From positions 1 through 36,762 of the IMG/VR virus record IMGVR_UViG_3300031702_000020: DNA of 36,762 bases; one strand, given 5' to 3'. Below, piece by piece: positions 1,940-35,912 of this stretch. Every line of letters starts with the position of its first letter. The first letter of the stretch is position 1. The notes under the pieces are model-generated. The model searched no databases, was not told the DNA's origin, and saw nothing but the letters and a program-made list of their open reading frames with translations. Source of the stretch: a virus. The translations under genes were made by a program, and so were the position numbers.

Positions 1940-1968
1940 TTGACAATTTTTGAGAATTGTTGTATACT
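1940..1968 (+). promoter_or_regulatory. Rightward sigma70 promoter of the first fibre block
   Basis: TTGACA (1940-1945), a 17-bp spacer and TATACT (1963-1968) give a near-consensus promoter. Its transcript would start near 1975 and have a leader of about 50 bases with Shine-Dalgarno AGGGGA before ATG 2026. A 6-bp inverted repeat (ACAATT...AATTGT) lies between the two boxes and overlaps the -35, and ATTGTTG occurs twice (1937-1943 and 1956-1962). Both could be contacts for a regulator. Confidence 0.85.
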
Positions 1969-2025: not shown

Positions 2026-3735
2026 ATGGCAGTTTCTTGTACAATTGTAGCTTTTTACGGAGGCGGATCACTTACGTTTGCGACTGAACCTTCGGGCTCA
2101 GGAAGCGTTAATTCGTTCTATTGGAAAGCAGAATTTTTAAACGTACAAGATGACTCAGCTCTCAATGCCTCTGGACAGATATACTGGGAGATTACTAGAC
2201 AGAGTGGTACTGGTAGTGACTTCTCTGCAACGTCAGGAACTTCGAGTGGCGTAGTGACTTTTAATAGTGGAGGAGTTGTTCATGCGTACATGCCTATACA
2301 GGCTTACTTTACAGATGATACTGTAGATGAGACCACGGGAATCGGCGAAAACTTTACTGTCTCAGTATATTTAAACTCGAGCAAGACGACACTCTATGCT
2401 TCGCAGACTTTTAAGTTATATGATGCAGACTTTAATATAAGTGGACCTTCGGGCACTTCTGTATTCAACATCACGTCTAGCGCAACTTCCCAGAATGTTA
2501 CATTTACACAAGGTGGTGCGACTGAGACAAATGCTCGTTCAATCGTAGTTCGAAATGCTTCAACCTCTGCAGTATTGTTTTACGATACGTGGGGCGCGAC
2601 AGAATACTATAGCCATACGATTACAATACCAAATGCCTACTTACCTTCTGCAGGGGGTAGCACTAGCTACTATATACAAGTGTATAATGGACAGTCGTAC
2701 TATACTGTAGGAAATACCTTTACAATTAATAGAGCTGCTGCCTTAACCTTTACTCAGCCTGTAGCAAGTGGAGTACTAGTAGTTGATGAGACAACTGTTG
2801 GCAGTGTTACCTCTACTTTCCAAATTTCAAATACTGGTGCTGGTGGAACGTTCTGGGCTATGCAACGCCCTACGTCGTACAACCCAGCTATTAATGATCC
2901 GAATTGGGTACAGTATTCAATAGCCGATAACTCTTCTACCTCACTTAACTTTAATCAGACTAGAGGCACTATACAGTACTACTATACTAGAAGGTATGAC
3001 TCAGCCAGTAACACGCAGTCCGTTGGTAGAACCATAAATCAGTCTGTTGGACAGATTGGTGCTGTAAGCGAAAGAGTACCTACTACTCCGGTAATCTCCT
3101 CAGTAACCATAGGCTCAGGAACACATAATGTTGTTTTGTCAAACAATCCCCCTGCTGATGGCATTACAGTAGTATACTACTATCAAAGTACTAATGCTAG
3201 TGCAATGGCCTCTCAGTCTGCTTGGGTGGATTCAGGTTCTGGAGCAGTACCTGCAGGATGGCAGGCAGGTTCAAACTTCTCAGCTAATACTGGAGTAACA
3301 TATTACTACTGGGCTCTAGGCTGGGCTGTAGGTGGAGGGGATGATGGCGCAACACTTTCAAACAGTGTATCTCAGTTCACTGCATCAGCAGTGGGTGGTG
3401 GTCTTGGCGTAGTAGGACAATCAAGTGTTAACGATTATGGACTAGAAGTTTATAACTCGTCAGGGCAGTTAAGAGTAGGGACTTTAGACAAAACATCTTT
3501 GTTTCTAGGAGATTATACCGTTACTACCAATTCTTCTGGTAACGTTGTTAATCAACAAGTACCGGGTGCAACATCCTCTGATTGTTATGCAATTAACACA
3601 ACTAATCCTAATTTTCTGCCAAATAGTGGCTGGAGAGCTAATCAAAGTCTAACGTTCACATTTGGAACAGACTCGGTAAGTATAAGCGGAGCACCTGCAA
3701 GTGTTACTATTCAATTTTATGTGGTGAGAGGATGA
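2026..3735 (+). CDS. Beta-rich tail fibre or receptor-binding protein with Calx-beta-like domain
   Basis: This 569-residue protein is rich in Ser, Thr, Tyr, Gly and Asn, as in phage fibres, and has no signal peptide. Residues about 20-130 read like a Calx-beta domain (GSDFSATSGT, then TFNSGG, then DDTVDE and a final beta strand). Two or more Ig- or fibronectin-like segments follow (about 132-450). The C-terminal 100 residues, beginning NDYGLEVYNSSGQ, form a separate module similar in opening to segments of the next protein (YGFQVIN, YGLQVLD). Start ATG 2026 has AGGGGA upstream and lies behind its own promoter. The stop overlaps the next ATG (ATGA). Genes 2026-4860 look like a host-recognition block with a chaperone. 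The fibre role is inferred from composition and context. Confidence 0.65.
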   Translation: MAVSCTIVAFYGGGSLTFATEPSGSGSVNSFYWKAEFLNVQDDSALNASGQIYWEITRQSGTGSDFSATSGTSSGVVTFNSGGVVHAYMPIQAYFTDDTVDETTGIGENFTVSVYLNSSKTTLYASQTFKLYDADFNISGPSGTSVFNITSSATSQNVTFTQGGATETNARSIVVRNASTSAVLFYDTWGATEYYSHTITIPNAYLPSAGGSTSYYIQVYNGQSYYTVGNTFTINRAAALTFTQPVASGVLVVDETTVGSVTSTFQISNTGAGGTFWAMQRPTSYNPAINDPNWVQYSIADNSSTSLNFNQTRGTIQYYYTRRYDSASNTQSVGRTINQSVGQIGAVSERVPTTPVISSVTIGSGTHNVVLSNNPPADGITVVYYYQSTNASAMASQSAWVDSGSGAVPAGWQAGSNFSANTGVTYYYWALGWAVGGGDDGATLSNSVSQFTASAVGGGLGVVGQSSVNDYGLEVYNSSGQLRVGTLDKTSLFLGDYTVTTNSSGNVVNQQVPGATSSDCYAINTTNPNFLPNSGWRANQSLTFTFGTDSVSISGAPASVTIQFYVVRG

Positions 3736-4428: not shown

Positions 4429-4860
4429 ATGGTAATAAGAATAGCTTGGGTAGATGGCTCAGGGAATATAAAACAATTGTTCACCCCCTCAGATTATAGA
4501 CCTTATAGTGAAGGAGATGAGCAAGATGGACTTACGCTACAGTACTGTGGAGACGGCATTAGCCCTGATACGCACTATTGGAAAGATGGGTGGTTTGTAA
4601 AGCCCACGCAGCCAGGAGATTACTATGATTGGATAGATGAAGCTTGGGTTCTTAACTCAGAGACTTTACTAGACATGATTAGACTGCATAGAAGCGCTAA
4701 ATTATTTGCTTCTGATTGGGCAGTGCTACTAGATAGCCCTCTTAGTGACGAAAAGAAAGCAGAGTGGGTTGCTTATAGACAAGCACTACGAGATGTTCCT
4801 GCGAACAACGCAGACGTCACACACTTAGACGACGTAACGTGGCCAGGAGAACCTTCATGA
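4429..4860 (+). CDS. Phage tail (fibre) assembly chaperone-like protein
   Basis: This 143-residue protein has a C-terminal part matching the tail-assembly-chaperone (Phage_tail_APC-type) pattern: helix, then LFASDWAVLLDSPLS, then EWVAYRQALRDVP and a final WPGEP. The N-terminal 70 residues form a Trp- and Tyr-rich beta segment. These proteins usually lie directly after the fibre gene they help to fold, as here. Two shorter relatives occur in the right-hand adhesin block (34468-34764 and 35613-35912), ending in the same YR-ALRD-P-DxxxP pattern. The last codons overlap the start of the decarboxylase-like gene. Confidence 0.75.
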   Translation: MVIRIAWVDGSGNIKQLFTPSDYRPYSEGDEQDGLTLQYCGDGISPDTHYWKDGWFVKPTQPGDYYDWIDEAWVLNSETLLDMIRLHRSAKLFASDWAVLLDSPLSDEKKAEWVAYRQALRDVPANNADVTHLDDVTWPGEPS

Positions 4861-5216
4861 GCTTATACTGGGGGTATCATTTAATGCTAGACTGCAGCGG
4901 GTGCAACGCGGGTATAGCTGACCACGATACAATTTATAACTTTATTAAAGATCTAGTAGTACGCATCGACATGGTAGCTGCTGGAGAACCAATCATTGAA
5001 CACCTGCTTCCAGGAGACCCGAAACAAGGGTACAGCCTGATGCAATTGATCACAACTTCAAATATCTGTGCACATTTTATGGAATTAGATGGTACAGCCT
5101 ACTTCGATGTCTTTAGTTGTAAAGAGTACGACATTGAGACGGTGAAAGAAATTGTGAGTGAGTATTTTGGGCCTAAGAAGATGCGAGTCAACTTCCTTAC
5201 TCGCCACGCAGACTAG
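4857..5216 (+). CDS. speD: S-adenosylmethionine decarboxylase-like pyruvoyl enzyme
   Basis: I choose ATG 4857 (ATGA overlap with the previous stop), giving 119 residues, similar to bacterial class 1b SpeD. Aligning from memory with Thermotoga maritima AdoMetDC, the self-cleaving Ser63 corresponds to Ser68, His68 to His73, Cys83 to Cys88 and Ser55 to Ser60, all with identical spacing. The N-terminal YHLMLDCSGC matches the usual GRHL-x-D-x-x-x-C opening, and YFDVFSC matches the IDLFTC strand. The residues flanking the cleavage Ser differ: the usual Glu-Ser-His is Thr-Ser-Asn. The family makes decarboxylated AdoMet for spermidine synthesis, and some members have become ornithine or arginine decarboxylases. 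It lies between a fibre chaperone and terS, with no spermidine synthase gene in the window. Family assignment is good, exact substrate unknown. Confidence 0.8.
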   Translation: MSLYWGYHLMLDCSGCNAGIADHDTIYNFIKDLVVRIDMVAAGEPIIEHLLPGDPKQGYSLMQLITTSNICAHFMELDGTAYFDVFSCKEYDIETVKEIVSEYFGPKKMRVNFLTRHAD

Positions 5217-5236: not shown

Positions 5237-5265
5237 TTGACAACATAACCCACTTTGAGTATAAT
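5237..5265 (+). promoter_or_regulatory. Sigma70 promoter directly abutting terS
   Basis: TTGACA (5237-5242), a 17-bp spacer and TATAAT (5260-5265) form a consensus promoter. The terS ATG begins at 5273, seven bases after the -10 box, exactly where transcription should start. The mRNA should therefore be leaderless or nearly so. Confidence 0.85.
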
Positions 5266-5272
5266 TTGAACC

Positions 5273-5743
5273 ATGGCAAAAGAACTAACTACAATCTCTC
5301 CAGAAGGCTTGGAGATCGCTAATTGTTATTTACAATTCGGAAACATTCGGGGCGTATGTGATTATCTTCAGGTACCTGAAACCGAAGTCGTAGACTTACT
5401 AAATAAGCGAGAGGTTAAGAAGTATATTGATACTGTCTACCTCGACATGGGCTACCGTAATAAGAATAATATTGGTGCTTTGCTTGACGATATGATTGCG
5501 TCCAAACTAGAAGAAGCACAGGAATCTGGTGTATATTCTAGTAAAGACCTTGCAGACTTATTACAAATGGCTCACAAAATGCGAATGGACGAAATCAAGG
5601 CTCAGGCCGATTTCGAGAAAGCAGAGGGTGGAAATATACGAAACCAGACTAATGTCCAGATCAATGAGGCGGTTCCTTTTGGTCAGGGCAATTATGGTAA
5701 GCTAATGGAAAAACTACTCAATGGAACAGAACAGCCCACCTGA
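5273..5743 (+). CDS. terS: Terminase small subunit
   Basis: This 156-residue protein has an N-terminal helix-turn-helix-like DNA-binding region (about 8-55, EGLEIANCYLQFGNIRGVCD onward) and a central helical region (about 65-112) containing YSSKDLADLLQMAHKMRMDE, typical of oligomerising small terminase subunits. The tail is polar. TerS recognises the packaging site and recruits TerL. The identification rests on pattern and on the TerL gene 1.7 kb downstream. No Shine-Dalgarno precedes the ATG, and its own promoter places the transcription start at the ATG. The end overlaps the next gene by 23 bases. Confidence 0.75.
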   Translation: MAKELTTISPEGLEIANCYLQFGNIRGVCDYLQVPETEVVDLLNKREVKKYIDTVYLDMGYRNKNNIGALLDDMIASKLEEAQESGVYSSKDLADLLQMAHKMRMDEIKAQADFEKAEGGNIRNQTNVQINEAVPFGQGNYGKLMEKLLNGTEQPT

Positions 5744-10394: not shown

Positions 10395-10692
10395 ACCACA
10401 ACGAATTAAACTTTGCAGAGACTTAGCTATGTACTTTGCAGAGAAGGGCAAGATTATGACTCAACAGGAGTACTTGGATGCGGCAGATAAGCCCGTCTCT
10501 TTCTCCGGAGTTCGTAGTGTTGGTAGAAGTTATTCTCGAGCAATTGAAATGGTAAAGAAGGCACACCCTGAATTACTAAAAATGGCTGAGAAAAAGAAGG
10601 AAGAGGCAGTAAAGCCTGTCGCACCTAAAGTACCAAAGCCAGCACCTAAGGCAGCGGTCAAGCCTGCTCCGGCAGTAAAACTGGATAAATAA
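10384..10692 (+). CDS. Small portal-capsid linker gene, function unknown
   Basis: I take ATG 10384 as the start because GAAGGAG lies 6-10 bases upstream; an ATG 93 bases earlier in frame lies deep inside the portal gene. The 102-residue product has a compact helical N-terminal part (about 1-65, RIKLCRDLAMYFAEKGKIM then SVGRSYSRAIEMVKK) resembling a DNA- or protein-binding helical bundle. It ends in a repetitive Lys/Ala/Pro tail (about 70-102). It is probably a minor head or assembly protein. The stop overlaps the protease-capsid ATG (TAATG). No named family is recognised. Confidence 0.55.
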   Translation: MSTRPQRIKLCRDLAMYFAEKGKIMTQQEYLDAADKPVSFSGVRSVGRSYSRAIEMVKKAHPELLKMAEKKKEEAVKPVAPKVPKPAPKAAVKPAPAVKLDK

Positions 10693-12650
10693 TGGATAAA
10701 ATATTTAATCTTACATCCACTTTTAAATCACTAGAGGCCGATGACGGGTCTATAATGATTAGAGGAATGGCAAGTACTGCTGATTTTGATCGCGCAGGCG
10801 ACACCATTTCAGCCGAGGCTTGGCAGAAAGGTGGACTAAAGAATTTTGAGAAGAATCCAATCATTCTGTTTAATCATGATTATGATAGACCGATTGGAAG
10901 AGCCACTGGGATGAAAGCCGGTCCTAATGGTTTAGAGTTAGAGTGCAAAATCAGCAAATCTGCCCCTGGCAATGTAGCTGGTCTTGTTAAAGACGGTGTT
11001 CTTGGAGCCTTTTCTGTCGGTTTCAGAGTCAAGGACGCTGATTATATTAAAGAAACCGATGGACTAATGATTAAGGACGCTGAGTTATTCGAGGTATCAG
11101 TTGTATCTGTACCCTGTAATCAGGCAGCTACTTTTTCGCTCGCGAAGTCTTTTGACTCTACTACAGAGTACGAAGAATTCAAAAAAACTTTCACTAATCG
11201 TGTAGATCTAGCCGGTCAGTCTCTGGCTAAGGACGAAGCAATTGCTTCAAATGTAGCTAGTGACAACACACCGAAAAGCGTGGATACTACATCCACAGAT
11301 CAGGAGATCAAAATGGACAATCAAAACATCGACTTGGAAGCTTTTGCAAAGAAAGTAGCTGAAGATACAGCTGCTAAAATCGCAATGAAGCAAGCCGAGC
11401 AAAAAGCAGCTGATAAAGCTGAAATCGAGAAGGCTCAGGCCGAAGCATCTTTCATCGAAGCACAAGACATCAAAGTTAAGACTGGAATCCAGACTGGCGT
11501 TGAAGCTCTTATGGCTGACGTAGAAGCTAAGTTAAACGAAAAAGACGCGAAGATCGACGAAGTAATTGCTAAGTTTGGCAAAGACCTCGAAGAGAAGAAC
11601 GCAGAAATCGAAGCCATGCGCACAAGCAAGCGCGTATTTGGCGACCGTTCAGCTTCAGGCGATCTGTCTAAGTTCGGTCACGACTTCATGCACGCTAGCC
11701 TGTTAGGTACTATGACTGGTAAAGGTATGAACACCGATTTCGCTCGCGGCGTTATGGAAAAAGCTGGTCTAGACTATGCTACTAATGCTGGTGATATCGA
11801 TCAGGAAGTTGCACGTCAAATCGAGAAGGAAGTTACTCTCGAGCTAAAGACTGCTGGTGCTTTCCGTGAAATCCAGGTAAATGGCGCTGCTACTGTTATG
11901 CCCATCCAGCCTGATGTTACTGCTGCTACCTTCCAAACTGGTGCTGCTGCTGCTGGTAACCTCGACACCCCTGGTGGTGCTTCCGCTACTTTCCAACCTT
12001 CTCAGGTAATCTTGAACGCTTATCGTCTGATCTCTCAGACTTTCATGGACAACAATGTCGATGAGCAGGTTCTTATCAACTTGATGCCTATGCTAGTAGA
12101 CTCTGTTGCACGTGCTCACGCTCGCGCTGTTGATACTGCTATTATTCAAGGTGCAGGTTCTATCACTGGTCTAGACGGCTTTGCAACTGCAGCTGCTTCT
12201 GGTGCGCACACAGCAGCTAATCCTCTTACTGCTGCCCTTCTTATGGGAATGCGTAAAGACATGGGTAAGTATGGCGTTAACCCATCTGATGTTGCTTACG
12301 TTGTATCTCAGGCGCGCTACTTCGAGCTAATCGAAGATGCAGGCTTCCAGGATATTACTGATGTAGGTTCTGACGTTGCTACTAAGCTAACTGGTTCTAT
12401 CGGTTCTGTATTCGGTTCACCTGTAATCGTTTCTGATAGCTTTGCTGCTGAAGCAACTAACGAAGCTATCGCTTTTGCTGTTAACACTCGTAACTATGTT
12501 ATTCCACGTCTACGTGGTGTATCTGTTGAGTCTGACTACGAAGTCGGCAATCAGCGCAATGTAATCGTTGCTTCTCAGGCCCTAGGCTTTGAAGAGCTCG
12601 TTTCAGGCGGTGCTGGTAACCGTCCTTCTGTTAAACTCGACCTGGCTTAA
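10692..12650 (+). CDS. Fused HK97-type prohead protease and major capsid protein
   Basis: The 652-residue frame joins three parts. Residues about 1-155 are the prohead protease (peptidase U35): His62 in LFNHDYD and Ser108 in LGAFSVGF are the expected catalytic pair, with an acidic residue in ELFEVSVVSVP (131-141). Residues about 208-315 are a charged coiled coil equivalent to the HK97 delta/scaffold domain. Residues about 320-652 are the HK97-fold capsid protein (EVARQIEKEVTLELKTAGAF, later a typical HARAVDTAIIQG core). After assembly the protease would release mature capsid and destroy the scaffold. An internal in-frame start at 11313 probably makes most capsid without protease. Fusions of this kind are known in phages. 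Confidence 0.92.
   Translation: MDKIFNLTSTFKSLEADDGSIMIRGMASTADFDRAGDTISAEAWQKGGLKNFEKNPIILFNHDYDRPIGRATGMKAGPNGLELECKISKSAPGNVAGLVKDGVLGAFSVGFRVKDADYIKETDGLMIKDAELFEVSVVSVPCNQAATFSLAKSFDSTTEYEEFKKTFTNRVDLAGQSLAKDEAIASNVASDNTPKSVDTTSTDQEIKMDNQNIDLEAFAKKVAEDTAAKIAMKQAEQKAADKAEIEKAQAEASFIEAQDIKVKTGIQTGVEALMADVEAKLNEKDAKIDEVIAKFGKDLEEKNAEIEAMRTSKRVFGDRSASGDLSKFGHDFMHASLLGTMTGKGMNTDFARGVMEKAGLDYATNAGDIDQEVARQIEKEVTLELKTAGAFREIQVNGAATVMPIQPDVTAATFQTGAAAAGNLDTPGGASATFQPSQVILNAYRLISQTFMDNNVDEQVLINLMPMLVDSVARAHARAVDTAIIQGAGSITGLDGFATAAASGAHTAANPLTAALLMGMRKDMGKYGVNPSDVAYVVSQARYFELIEDAGFQDITDVGSDVATKLTGSIGSVFGSPVIVSDSFAAEATNEAIAFAVNTRNYVIPRLRGVSVESDYEVGNQRNVIVASQALGFEELVSGGAGNRPSVKLDLA
11302..11315 (+). 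promoter_or_regulatory. Internal ribosome-binding site and start inside the protease-capsid gene
   Basis: AGGAG (11302-11306) is followed by six bases and ATG (11313-11315), codon 208 of the fused gene and in frame. This is the best-placed Shine-Dalgarno within the gene and lies exactly at the protease/scaffold boundary. Confidence 0.65.
11313..12650 (+). CDS. Predicted internal-start product: scaffold (delta) domain plus major capsid protein
   Basis: Initiation at ATG 11313 (MDNQNIDLEAF) gives a 445-residue protein with the coiled-coil scaffold domain (about 1-105) and the HK97-fold capsid (about 115-445), that is, a normal HK97-type capsid precursor. A capsid needs hundreds of shell subunits but few protease copies, so a separate strong start solves the ratio problem created by the fusion. 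The capsid part uses smoother, highly-expressed-looking codons (many GCT, GGT, CGT) than the protease part, consistent with heavy translation. This is inference from sequence. The alternative is that all capsid arises from the full-length fusion by proteolysis. Confidence 0.6.
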   Translation: MDNQNIDLEAFAKKVAEDTAAKIAMKQAEQKAADKAEIEKAQAEASFIEAQDIKVKTGIQTGVEALMADVEAKLNEKDAKIDEVIAKFGKDLEEKNAEIEAMRTSKRVFGDRSASGDLSKFGHDFMHASLLGTMTGKGMNTDFARGVMEKAGLDYATNAGDIDQEVARQIEKEVTLELKTAGAFREIQVNGAATVMPIQPDVTAATFQTGAAAAGNLDTPGGASATFQPSQVILNAYRLISQTFMDNNVDEQVLINLMPMLVDSVARAHARAVDTAIIQGAGSITGLDGFATAAASGAHTAANPLTAALLMGMRKDMGKYGVNPSDVAYVVSQARYFELIEDAGFQDITDVGSDVATKLTGSIGSVFGSPVIVSDSFAAEATNEAIAFAVNTRNYVIPRLRGVSVESDYEVGNQRNVIVASQALGFEELVSGGAGNRPSVKLDLA

Positions 12651-33607: not shown

Positions 33608-34456
33608 ATGAGTAATTTATCAGATTTTTTTGGAAGTAGTGGTGGTGGCTCTGCGTCATTTCCAACAATCTTTTTAAGCAAGTCCCAGACATGGGTTCCA
33701 CCACAGGACGGCAACATTTGTATCCATGTTATTGGCGCAGGTGGCGGTGGTCGTGGTCATAGTAACAATACTGGTAGTGGTGCTGCTGGCGGGTATTGCA
33801 AAAAGAACACTTTAGCAGTCACTACTTCTGGCTCTTTCACAGTTGTAGTAGGTGCTGCTGGCGCTGGCGGTGCAAACGGCAGAGGAAATACCGGAGCTGG
33901 GGGAAATGGTGGAAACTCAACTGTAGCAGGCACTGGGTTGTCGGCTACTCTAACGGCTAACGGGGGTGCAGGTGCGGCAGGTAGTAATGGCGCTTCGGCT
34001 GCATCAGGAGGCTCAGCCTCAAATGGTGATGTAAATAATACTGGTGGCGCTGGCGCAGCTACACACGGAAATGGTTATGGTGCTGCTGGAGGCGGTGCTG
34101 TAGGTCTCACAGGTACAGGGCAAGCAGGTGCTATTGGTAATTTAGACATTCCCACAGCAGGCGAGACTCACATTATTGGCGACTTGTGGTCATCGACAAT
34201 GGGACAAATAGCTGGCGGCTTAGCTGGGCGCTGTATTAGAAGGATCAATGGCACAGGACCTCATGACGCTGTCAATGGCGGCCCATTATCAGGCGGTGGC
34301 GGTGTTTTATTCCAGACAACTACTGAGGCACTAGTGCAAGGCGGTGCTGGTGGTATTGGCGGTGGAGGCGGTGGAGGCGAAAACAGAGCACATCAATCGT
34401 CATCTTTAGGCGGTGATGGCGGCGAAGGTATCGTTGTCATCCAATACATACCATAA
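33608..34456 (+). CDS. Glycine-rich adhesin, copy A
   Basis: This 282-residue protein begins MSNLSDFFGSSGGGS, followed by a small domain (SQTWVPPQDGNICIHVIGAG) and then a body dominated by Gly-rich repeats (AGGGGRGHSN, GGNGGNSTVAG, GGAGGIGGGGGGGE), ending in EGIVVIQYIP. This polyglycine layout recalls the receptor-binding gp38 adhesins of T-even phages, in which Gly-rich motifs sandwich variable loops. It and the next gene (a chaperone-like protein) are repeated immediately downstream. AGGAG precedes the ATG. The adhesin role is inferred. Confidence 0.72.
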   Translation: MSNLSDFFGSSGGGSASFPTIFLSKSQTWVPPQDGNICIHVIGAGGGGRGHSNNTGSGAAGGYCKKNTLAVTTSGSFTVVVGAAGAGGANGRGNTGAGGNGGNSTVAGTGLSATLTANGGAGAAGSNGASAASGGSASNGDVNNTGGAGAATHGNGYGAAGGGAVGLTGTGQAGAIGNLDIPTAGETHIIGDLWSSTMGQIAGGLAGRCIRRINGTGPHDAVNGGPLSGGGGVLFQTTTEALVQGGAGGIGGGGGGGENRAHQSSSLGGDGGEGIVVIQYIP

Positions 34457-34467
34457 GGAGGTATAAA

Positions 34468-34764
34468 ATGAGATATAATATTAAAGATGCTGACGGTAAC
34501 ATCACAAATACCATCACTGCTGACGCTGAGTTTGTTGAAGCTAACTTTGAACACTATGAGCTTTGGGTAGCGGCTACACCTGTAGAGCCTACAGCAGCAG
34601 AAGCTGGACGTAGATGGCGCAACAGTGAGTTAGATGCTACAGATAGAGCAGCAGAGATATCTGACTGGCCTAACCGTGACAATATCCTGACCTATAGGAC
34701 TGCATTGCGTGACTGGCCGTCTACCTCAGACTTCCCTGACACACGTCCAGTACTAGGAGAATAG
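34468..34764 (+). CDS. Tail-fibre assembly chaperone-like protein, copy A
   Basis: The 98 residues begin MRYNIKDADGNITNTI and end RTALRDWPSTSDFPDTRP, the W/YR-ALRD-P pattern of tail assembly chaperone (APC-type) proteins. A strong AAGGAGGT site lies before the ATG. It directly follows the adhesin it probably folds or caps. It is about 70 percent identical by eye to copy B at 35613 and shares its C-terminal pattern with the 4429 gene. Confidence 0.7.
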   Translation: MRYNIKDADGNITNTITADAEFVEANFEHYELWVAATPVEPTAAEAGRRWRNSELDATDRAAEISDWPNRDNILTYRTALRDWPSTSDFPDTRPVLGE

Positions 34765-34765
34765 A

Positions 34766-35602
34766 ATGAGTAATTTATCAGATTTTTTTGGAAGTAGTGG
34801 TGGTGGTTCTCCGCCAGTAAATATAGTATTAACTTCATCACAGACATGGGTTCCACCTGTTGATGGGACTATTTGCATACACGTTATTGGTGCTGGAGGC
34901 GGTGGTTTTTCGTCAACGGGCAACCCAAATTCTGGTGGTGCAGGTGGTTATTGCAAAAAAACTTCACTAGCTGTGACTACTTCTGGTTCCTTTACAGTTG
35001 TAGTGGGTGCAAAAGGTCGTGGTGGACATGGCGGTAATGTAGGATTAAGCGGTGGAACTTCTACTGTTGCAGGAACAGGGCTGTCAAGCACCATAACTGC
35101 TAACGGAGGAACAGGGGCTACATCTTCTGCTGTTGGCACAGGAGGGTCAGCCACAAATGGAGATGTAAATAATACTGGTGGAAACGGCTCAGGGGGAAAC
35201 GAATGTGGCGGAGGCGCTGTTGGTATTTATGGTACTGGAGAAACCCCCCAACCTGGTGCAACTTATGGAAACCGTGGTGGAGAAAGCGATTCTCAAGCAC
35301 ATGGTTTTGAATCAATGAGTGGTTACGGGCATCTTGTTGGCGGTAAAGCAGGAAAACTAGTCAATATAAGTAGTGCTGGGACTAACTACATACAACCTAC
35401 ATACGCTGAAATTCACGGAGGGCCGTTGTCTGGTGGGGGCGCACAGAAAAATCGTTCCTCGAATACATATACATACGTACACGGTGGGGATGGTGGTATA
35501 GGTGGTGGCGGTGGTGGGTGTCGTAATGCATCAAGCGCATCTTACGCTGTTGGTGGCGATGGTGGAAACGGCGTTGTAATTATTCAATACCTACCAGGAT
35601 AA
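34766..35602 (+). CDS. Glycine-rich adhesin, copy B
   Basis: This 278-residue paralogue of the 33608 adhesin shares the N-terminal MSNLSDFFGSSGGGS and the QTWVPP-DG-ICIHVIGAGGGG block, the GGYCKK-SLAVTTSGSFTVVVGA segment and the GGIGGGGGG-to-VIIQYLPG end. The region between (about 95-235) differs, as expected if the two copies recognise different receptors. The start lies 1 base after the stop of chaperone copy A, with GGAG about 7 bases upstream inside that gene. Confidence 0.72.
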   Translation: MSNLSDFFGSSGGGSPPVNIVLTSSQTWVPPVDGTICIHVIGAGGGGFSSTGNPNSGGAGGYCKKTSLAVTTSGSFTVVVGAKGRGGHGGNVGLSGGTSTVAGTGLSSTITANGGTGATSSAVGTGGSATNGDVNNTGGNGSGGNECGGGAVGIYGTGETPQPGATYGNRGGESDSQAHGFESMSGYGHLVGGKAGKLVNISSAGTNYIQPTYAEIHGGPLSGGGAQKNRSSNTYTYVHGGDGGIGGGGGGCRNASSASYAVGGDGGNGVVIIQYLPG

Positions 35603-35612
35603 GGAGAGAAAA

Positions 35613-35912
35613 ATGAATTATATAATTAAAGACGCTGACGGCAACATCACAAATACCATTCTTGCTAGTGCTGAGTTTGTTGAAGCTAACTTTGAGCATT
35701 ATGAAGAGTGGGTTGCACCTACACCTGTAGAGCCTACAGCAGCAGAGACTGCTCGACAATGGCGCGATGGCGAACTGTCATCCACAGACACAGCAGCACA
35801 AACCCCAGACTGGCCAAACAGAGCTAATATTCTGACCTACCGTACAGCTCTACGAGACTGGCCGTCTACTGAGGACTTCCCTGACACACGGCCGACATTG
35901 TCTACAGAATAA
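35613..35912 (+). CDS. Tail-fibre assembly chaperone-like protein, copy B
   Basis: The 99 residues begin MNYIIKDADGNITNTI and end RTALRDWPSTEDFPDTRPTL. It is a close paralogue of the 34468 gene, so it most likely serves adhesin copy B. AAGGAGAG precedes the ATG. The pair of chaperones diverges most in the centre (residues about 45-70), possibly for specificity. Confidence 0.7.
   Translation: MNYIIKDADGNITNTILASAEFVEANFEHYEEWVAPTPVEPTAAETARQWRDGELSSTDTAAQTPDWPNRANILTYRTALRDWPSTEDFPDTRPTLSTE

Follow-up and report, generated by a model that had tools for sequence, protein, structure and literature searches.

The window, that is, the whole 36,762-nucleotide stretch of viral DNA analysed here, is a fragment of a tailed-phage genome; its terminase (50%) and portal (40%) come nearest to those of phages of about 100–120 kb, e.g. 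Vibrio phage vB_ValS_X1 and phages of Serratia and Escherichia, which we take to be T5-like. Within it, a tail-fibre operon ends with a small gene of the S-adenosylmethionine (AdoMet) decarboxylase family, designated here speDC (Table 1). The product of the first gene of this operon has no database match. A GTG start at 4839 was considered for speDC and rejected, as protein similarity to the relatives L005–L009 begins only at the ATG; in L005–L008 the ribosome-binding site reads AGGAGG. Comparison with L005 gives proportions of differences of 0.06 for nonsynonymous and 0.73 for synonymous sites, and speDC is therefore under strong purifying selection and has been kept functional.

Table 1. Features of the speDC locus (window coordinates)
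Feature	Position	Strand	Description	Basis
Sigma-70 promoter	1940..1968	+	near-perfect (11 of 12), upstream of fibre operon	
First gene of the operon ended by speDC	2026..3735	+	likely fibre/receptor-binding protein	position only
Tail-fibre assembly chaperone	4429..4860	+	ATGA overlap with speDC	PF16778
Shine-Dalgarno AGGAG	4845..4849	+	precedes speDC	sequence
speDC	4857..5216	+	119 aa; predicted pyruvoyl-dependent L-ornithine decarboxylase proenzyme	PF02675, phrog_3125, AlphaFold model, residues, tree
Ser60 codon	5034..5036	+	equivalent to T. maritima Ser55	alignment
Ser68 codon	5058..5060	+	predicted self-cleavage site and pyruvoyl source; equivalent to T. maritima Ser63	alignment
His73 codon	5073..5075	+	equivalent to T. 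maritima His68	alignment
Cys88 codon	5118..5120	+	equivalent to T. maritima Cys83	alignment
Sigma-70 promoter	5237..5265	+	perfect (12 of 12, 17-nt spacer), between speDC and terS	
Terminase small subunit (terS)	5273..5743	+	starts separate transcription unit	phrog_3802, E 8.8e-38

The window protein is unambiguously a member of the PF02675 (AdoMet_dc) superfamily with the class 1b SpeD fold. It matches PF02675 with 65.7 bits (cut-off 25; E 5.7e-18) over positions 1–106 of the 107 in the profile, and phrog_3125, ‘S-adenosylmethionine decarboxylase’, with an E-value of 3.8e-21. Sequence searches of the PDB with either the protein or its family alignment returned no match; comparison of folds gave one. 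The AlphaFold model, built from 18 sequences (the window's and those of viral contigs), has a mean pLDDT of 92.6 and matches T. maritima SpeD (1vr7) along the whole chain with a Z-score of 17.1 and an r.m.s.d. of 2.1 over 113 residues at 21% identity, and Foldseek gives the same model a TM-score of 0.84 against T. maritima SpeD. The first-pass annotation of this DNA had noted that four residues fall at the spacing of the T. maritima SpeD active site, considered self-cleavage plausible, and proposed structure prediction and alignment against SpeD as a check. The fold match bears this out, and MAFFT puts all four residues on catalytic positions, with gaps of 8, 5 and 15 residues both in S60-S68-H73-C88 and in T. 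maritima S55-S63-H68-C83. All catalytic residues are kept in 94/94 viral relatives; Ser68 is invariant across all relatives aligned, and the position of Ser60 is occupied by Ser or Thr. The retention of the catalytic Ser, Ser, His and Cys makes self-cleavage plausible.

Fold and catalytic residues are thus common to the window protein and to bona fide class 1b SpeD/SpeH (T. maritima 1vr7 and 1tlu), but the surrounding motifs are not. The HTWPE motif of SpeD contains AdoMet-binding residues; HT[WY]PE, present in 18/18 bona fide SpeD, reads HFMEL in the window protein. At the cleavage site the same 18 proteins have E-S-H where the window has T67-S68-N69, so that both the Glu preceding the cleavage Ser and the His following it are gone. 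This substitution had been remarked upon before and the sequence is as described, but it is not unusual, since T-S-[N/S/A/L] is the norm of the window's clade; Asn69 in place of that His still stands as a reservation about processing. The protein also misses the SpeD equivalog model TIGR03330, scoring 31.2 bits where the cut-off is 75.65.

In place of the SpeD motifs the window protein carries four other residues. Li et al. (JBC 2023; PMC10407285), who introduced the names SpeDC and SpeDA for the cellular enzymes, describe a Gln, a Thr, a Phe and a Tyr in the central region, shared by bacterial and archaeal SpeDC, as diagnostic for SpeDC. All four are present in the window protein as Q63, T67, F74 and Y82, around Ser68, His73 and Cys88, the columns being deduced from the published order of the four letters together with the alignment. 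In a joint alignment the complete set occurs in 25/25 viral and 29/32 cellular relatives and in 0/18 bona fide SpeD, conservation among the relatives being partly built in at the Tyr82, Phe74 and Asn69 columns, which the search patterns contained. Gln63 lay outside every relative-search pattern used and is invariant in 174 sequences; neither it nor the comparison with SpeD is affected by this bias.

The phylogeny places the protein accordingly. In a maximum-likelihood tree of 81 sequences, computed from few alignment columns, the window protein and 20 viral sequences form a set containing no cellular rows (support 100/96) within a cellular SpeDC-like group, and the 18 bona fide SpeD branch apart (support 100/97). 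Most of the cellular homologues found, which come from Methanomicrobia, Spirochaetota, Anaerolineae, Pseudomonadota and Chlamydiota, carry the four SpeDC residues. We searched 38 genomes, mostly drafts, that encode a close cellular relative for the PF02675, spermidine synthase and PLP-decarboxylase families. At least seven of them (G064, G070, G071, G076, G078, G079 and G080) encode SpeDC, SpeE and a bona fide SpeD in that order on one strand within about 2 kb. No PF02784 protein was found in 8/38 genomes, mostly Chlamydiota with one Verrucomicrobia and one Anaerolineae, weak evidence given that the genomes are mostly drafts; most of the remainder have a single PF02784 protein, which may be a lysine-pathway enzyme. 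Comparable genomic settings served in PMC10407285 as the ground for predicting ornithine decarboxylase (ODC) activity, which was then proved. Cellular SpeDC genes frequently share an operon with speE, speD or genes of that sort, whereas the window gene is alone and belongs to a virus-only clade.

Biochemical precedent for this type of protein exists in phages. Several phage AdoMetDC homologues of 117–122 residues lack AdoMetDC function and act instead as pyruvoyl-dependent ornithine decarboxylases (Li et al., PNAS 2023; PMC9992855). Among these, LBP ATV46410 and UCP02–UCP04 are, like the window protein, phage-borne class 1b homologues, of about 119–122 residues; they fail to bring back spermidine in a speD deletion, and the purified phage SpeDC proteins decarboxylate ornithine (PMC9992855). 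The window gene differs in closing a tail-fibre operon. The sequences of these assayed enzymes were not found in the collections searched, and in the phage record collection the best match to the window protein is only 35% identical.

Taken together, these data suggest that speDC encodes a SpeDC-type pyruvoyl-dependent L-ornithine decarboxylase, which would self-cleave before Ser68 and make putrescine from ornithine, and we assign this reading a probability of roughly 0.77. The 119-residue proenzyme would fold like SpeD, with Ser60 and His73 assisting cleavage before Ser68 to give a beta chain (residues 1–67) and an alpha chain beginning with the residue that would become the pyruvoyl group. 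Ornithine would form a Schiff base with the pyruvoyl group and lose CO2, after which Cys88 would give the proton and putrescine would be released; such an enzyme would require neither PLP nor AdoMet. As part of the late fibre operon, speDC would increase the putrescine level of infected cells, and host enzymes would convert this putrescine to spermidine or homospermidine. A benefit to the phage by this route is plausible by analogy, because polyamine dependence is known in some phages, phage JG004 depending on polyamine via host speD (PMC3120641).

A changed amine substrate, either ornithine or arginine, had been proposed in the first-pass annotation. The change of substrate is upheld as far as the residues can tell, and ornithine is the better fit of the two because all four published SpeDC residues are present. 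It is quite unlikely that the window protein is instead a SpeDA-like pyruvoyl arginine decarboxylase, or a mixed ornithine/arginine enzyme, yielding agmatine as in pelagiphage HTVC201P. That phage carries an arginine decarboxylase (PMC9992855) which, like the window protein, is phage-borne with a changed substrate and has Gln63 and Thr67, the pelagiphage enzymes grouping beside the SpeDC side of the tree, and UCP01, one of the assayed phage ODCs, clearly acts on arginine as well (PMC9992855). The HTVC201P enzyme, however, has only 2/4 SpeDC residues in the joint alignment, with Ser in place of Phe74 and Gln in place of Tyr82, retains the Trp75 and Glu77 that are absent from the window protein, and is encoded beside ribonucleotide reductase. 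In addition, PF00491 (agmatinase/arginase) is absent from 48/49 related viral records, the exception being a single copy in a 524-kb record. We know of no single residue signature published for SpeDA.

Retention of the ancestral activity is considered very unlikely. A true AdoMet decarboxylase could supply decarboxylated AdoMet to the host spermidine synthase or deplete AdoMet, e.g. against restriction-modification, and the family name speaks for it, as does the AdoMet decarboxylase of Sinorhizobium phage phiN3. The phiN3 protein is 35% identical to the window protein, shares Gln63, Phe74 and Tyr82 (3/4 SpeDC residues in the joint alignment), has no HTWPE and joins the SpeDC side of the tree, where both it and the pelagiphage enzyme sit on long branches whose exact places are unsure; nevertheless it restored spermidine in an E. 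coli speD deletion (PMC9992855). AdoMet activity can therefore occur in the SpeDC-side group. The window protein, in contrast to phiN3, which has Asp and His in these positions, has Thr67 and Asn69, and against AdoMet as substrate stand its score below the TIGR03330 cut-off and the absence of HT[WY]PE and of the Glu and His that flank the cleavage Ser in SpeD. AdoMet depletion, one of the possibilities raised earlier, is unlikely because HTWPE and the Glu preceding the cleavage Ser have been lost, although the phiN3 case tempers this, and PADLOC gave no support for a defence or anti-defence role of speDC. Spermidine synthase (PF01564) was found in 0 of 49 related viral records, many of them fragments, although a host enzyme could be used. 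With PF02784 (PLP decarboxylase) likewise in 0 and PF00491 in 1 of the 49, these records gave no sign of a polyamine pathway carried by the phages around speDC.

The transcriptional setting bears on what the putative ornithine decarboxylase is for. The first-pass annotation described speDC as translationally coupled to a fibre chaperone and preceding terS; the ATGA overlap and the phrog_3802 match of the next gene agree with this, but the intervening promoter separates terS from speDC and rules out an operon link between the two. In L005 and L006 the hexamers of this promoter are conserved while the spacer has diverged, and speDC therefore closes the unit begun near 1940 and terS opens the next. 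Perfect TTGACA/TATAAT promoters with spacers of 16–18 nt occur three times in the window against 0.03 expected. Counting near-perfect ones with 17-nt spacers, five such promoters (at 1940, 5237, 8777, 16300 and 29671, all on the + strand, three of them perfect) divide the late/structural region into units, an arrangement that would be out of the ordinary for late genes in a phage with late control of its own. The promoter before terS ends 7 nt from the terS ATG, as it does in L005/L006, and the terS mRNA may be leaderless.

The position of speDC changes from phage to phage. The gene arrangement is identical in L002–L004, whereas in L005–L009 speDC has its own near-perfect promoter 24–27 nt before the ATG, and in 32/94 viral relatives a dsbA-like gene (phrog_12534 and phrog_639), which we read as T4 dsbA, and a T4-like DNA polymerase lie nearby. 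This variation marks speDC as a movable auxiliary phage gene, and its nearness to terS is uninformative on packaging. The earlier suggestion that polyamine is supplied for DNA condensation during packaging finds no evidence here, as terS has its own conserved promoter and speDC stands elsewhere beside fibre genes or DNA polymerase. For the same reasons we regard it as highly improbable that the protein is catalytically inactive or part of the virion and serves in structure or packaging: speDC does follow the fibre chaperone in the window and in L002–L004 and precedes fibre-like genes in L007–L009, but the DNA polymerase neighbourhood leaves no constant structural neighbour, terS is independently promoted, and the catalytic residues are kept throughout the viral relatives. 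Downstream of the fibre genes, L007 (2798–5421) and L009 (4139–6405) encode secreted-looking small proteins, two of which were tested and have no Pfam match.

Elsewhere in the window, a two-gene tandem repeat at 33608–35912 encodes a glycine-rich fibre protein and a short chaperone, the copies being alike, with PF21722 in the fibre protein and PF16778 in the chaperone of the first copy. The head maturation protease and major capsid protein form one 652-residue ORF at 10692–12650 (phrog_80, phrog_617), and a HAD phosphatase at 486–971 on the minus strand resembles the phosphatase domain of polynucleotide kinase (phrog_415).

Phage AdoMetDC homologues that no longer act on AdoMet have been known since 2023, and with them the phage SpeDC kind, to which the window gene adds a checkable case. 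One pattern scan matched at least 600 stretches, and 563 of the 600 matches listed encode relatives. The re-purposed form is widespread among phages, where it makes up a clade without cellular members and moves between genome positions that are unrelated. The annotation ‘S-adenosylmethionine decarboxylase’ is probably wrong for this phage SpeDC group.

A second enzyme gene recurs beside speDC in other phages. A gene for a PF11927 protein (haem-dependent oxidative N-demethylase alpha-like, HODM_asu) directly adjoins speDC in 20/94 viral relatives (L010–L013, L030, L032–L042, L044, L045, L061 and L063), either in tandem, with PF11927 second and usually an overlap of a few bases (about 7 nt), or convergently (L030, L032 and L033). 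The reverse search found speDC directly adjacent in 34/68 viral PF11927 loci, in both arrangements (range L213–L278); since the records include many near-duplicates, the independent events are fewer. PF11927 was present in 1/38 cellular genomes only, and the gene is absent from the window. Our literature search found no earlier report of the pair, and its recurrence offers a new, testable lead on how phages use the amine. One conceivable, though unlikely, explanation is that the virus-only SpeDC and the abutting PF11927 enzyme constitute a two-gene phage module that would make and then oxidise or otherwise modify an amine; phages whose sequenced part shows speDC only, such as that of the window, may encode the partner in the part of the genome that is missing, or draw on one from the host. 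A different grouping is seen in Microcystis phage MaAM05 (L028, 2486–5264), where a four-gene cluster combines two AdoMetDC homologues, one of them, named speH_1, with neither the SpeDC residues nor HTWPE, with speE and speB.
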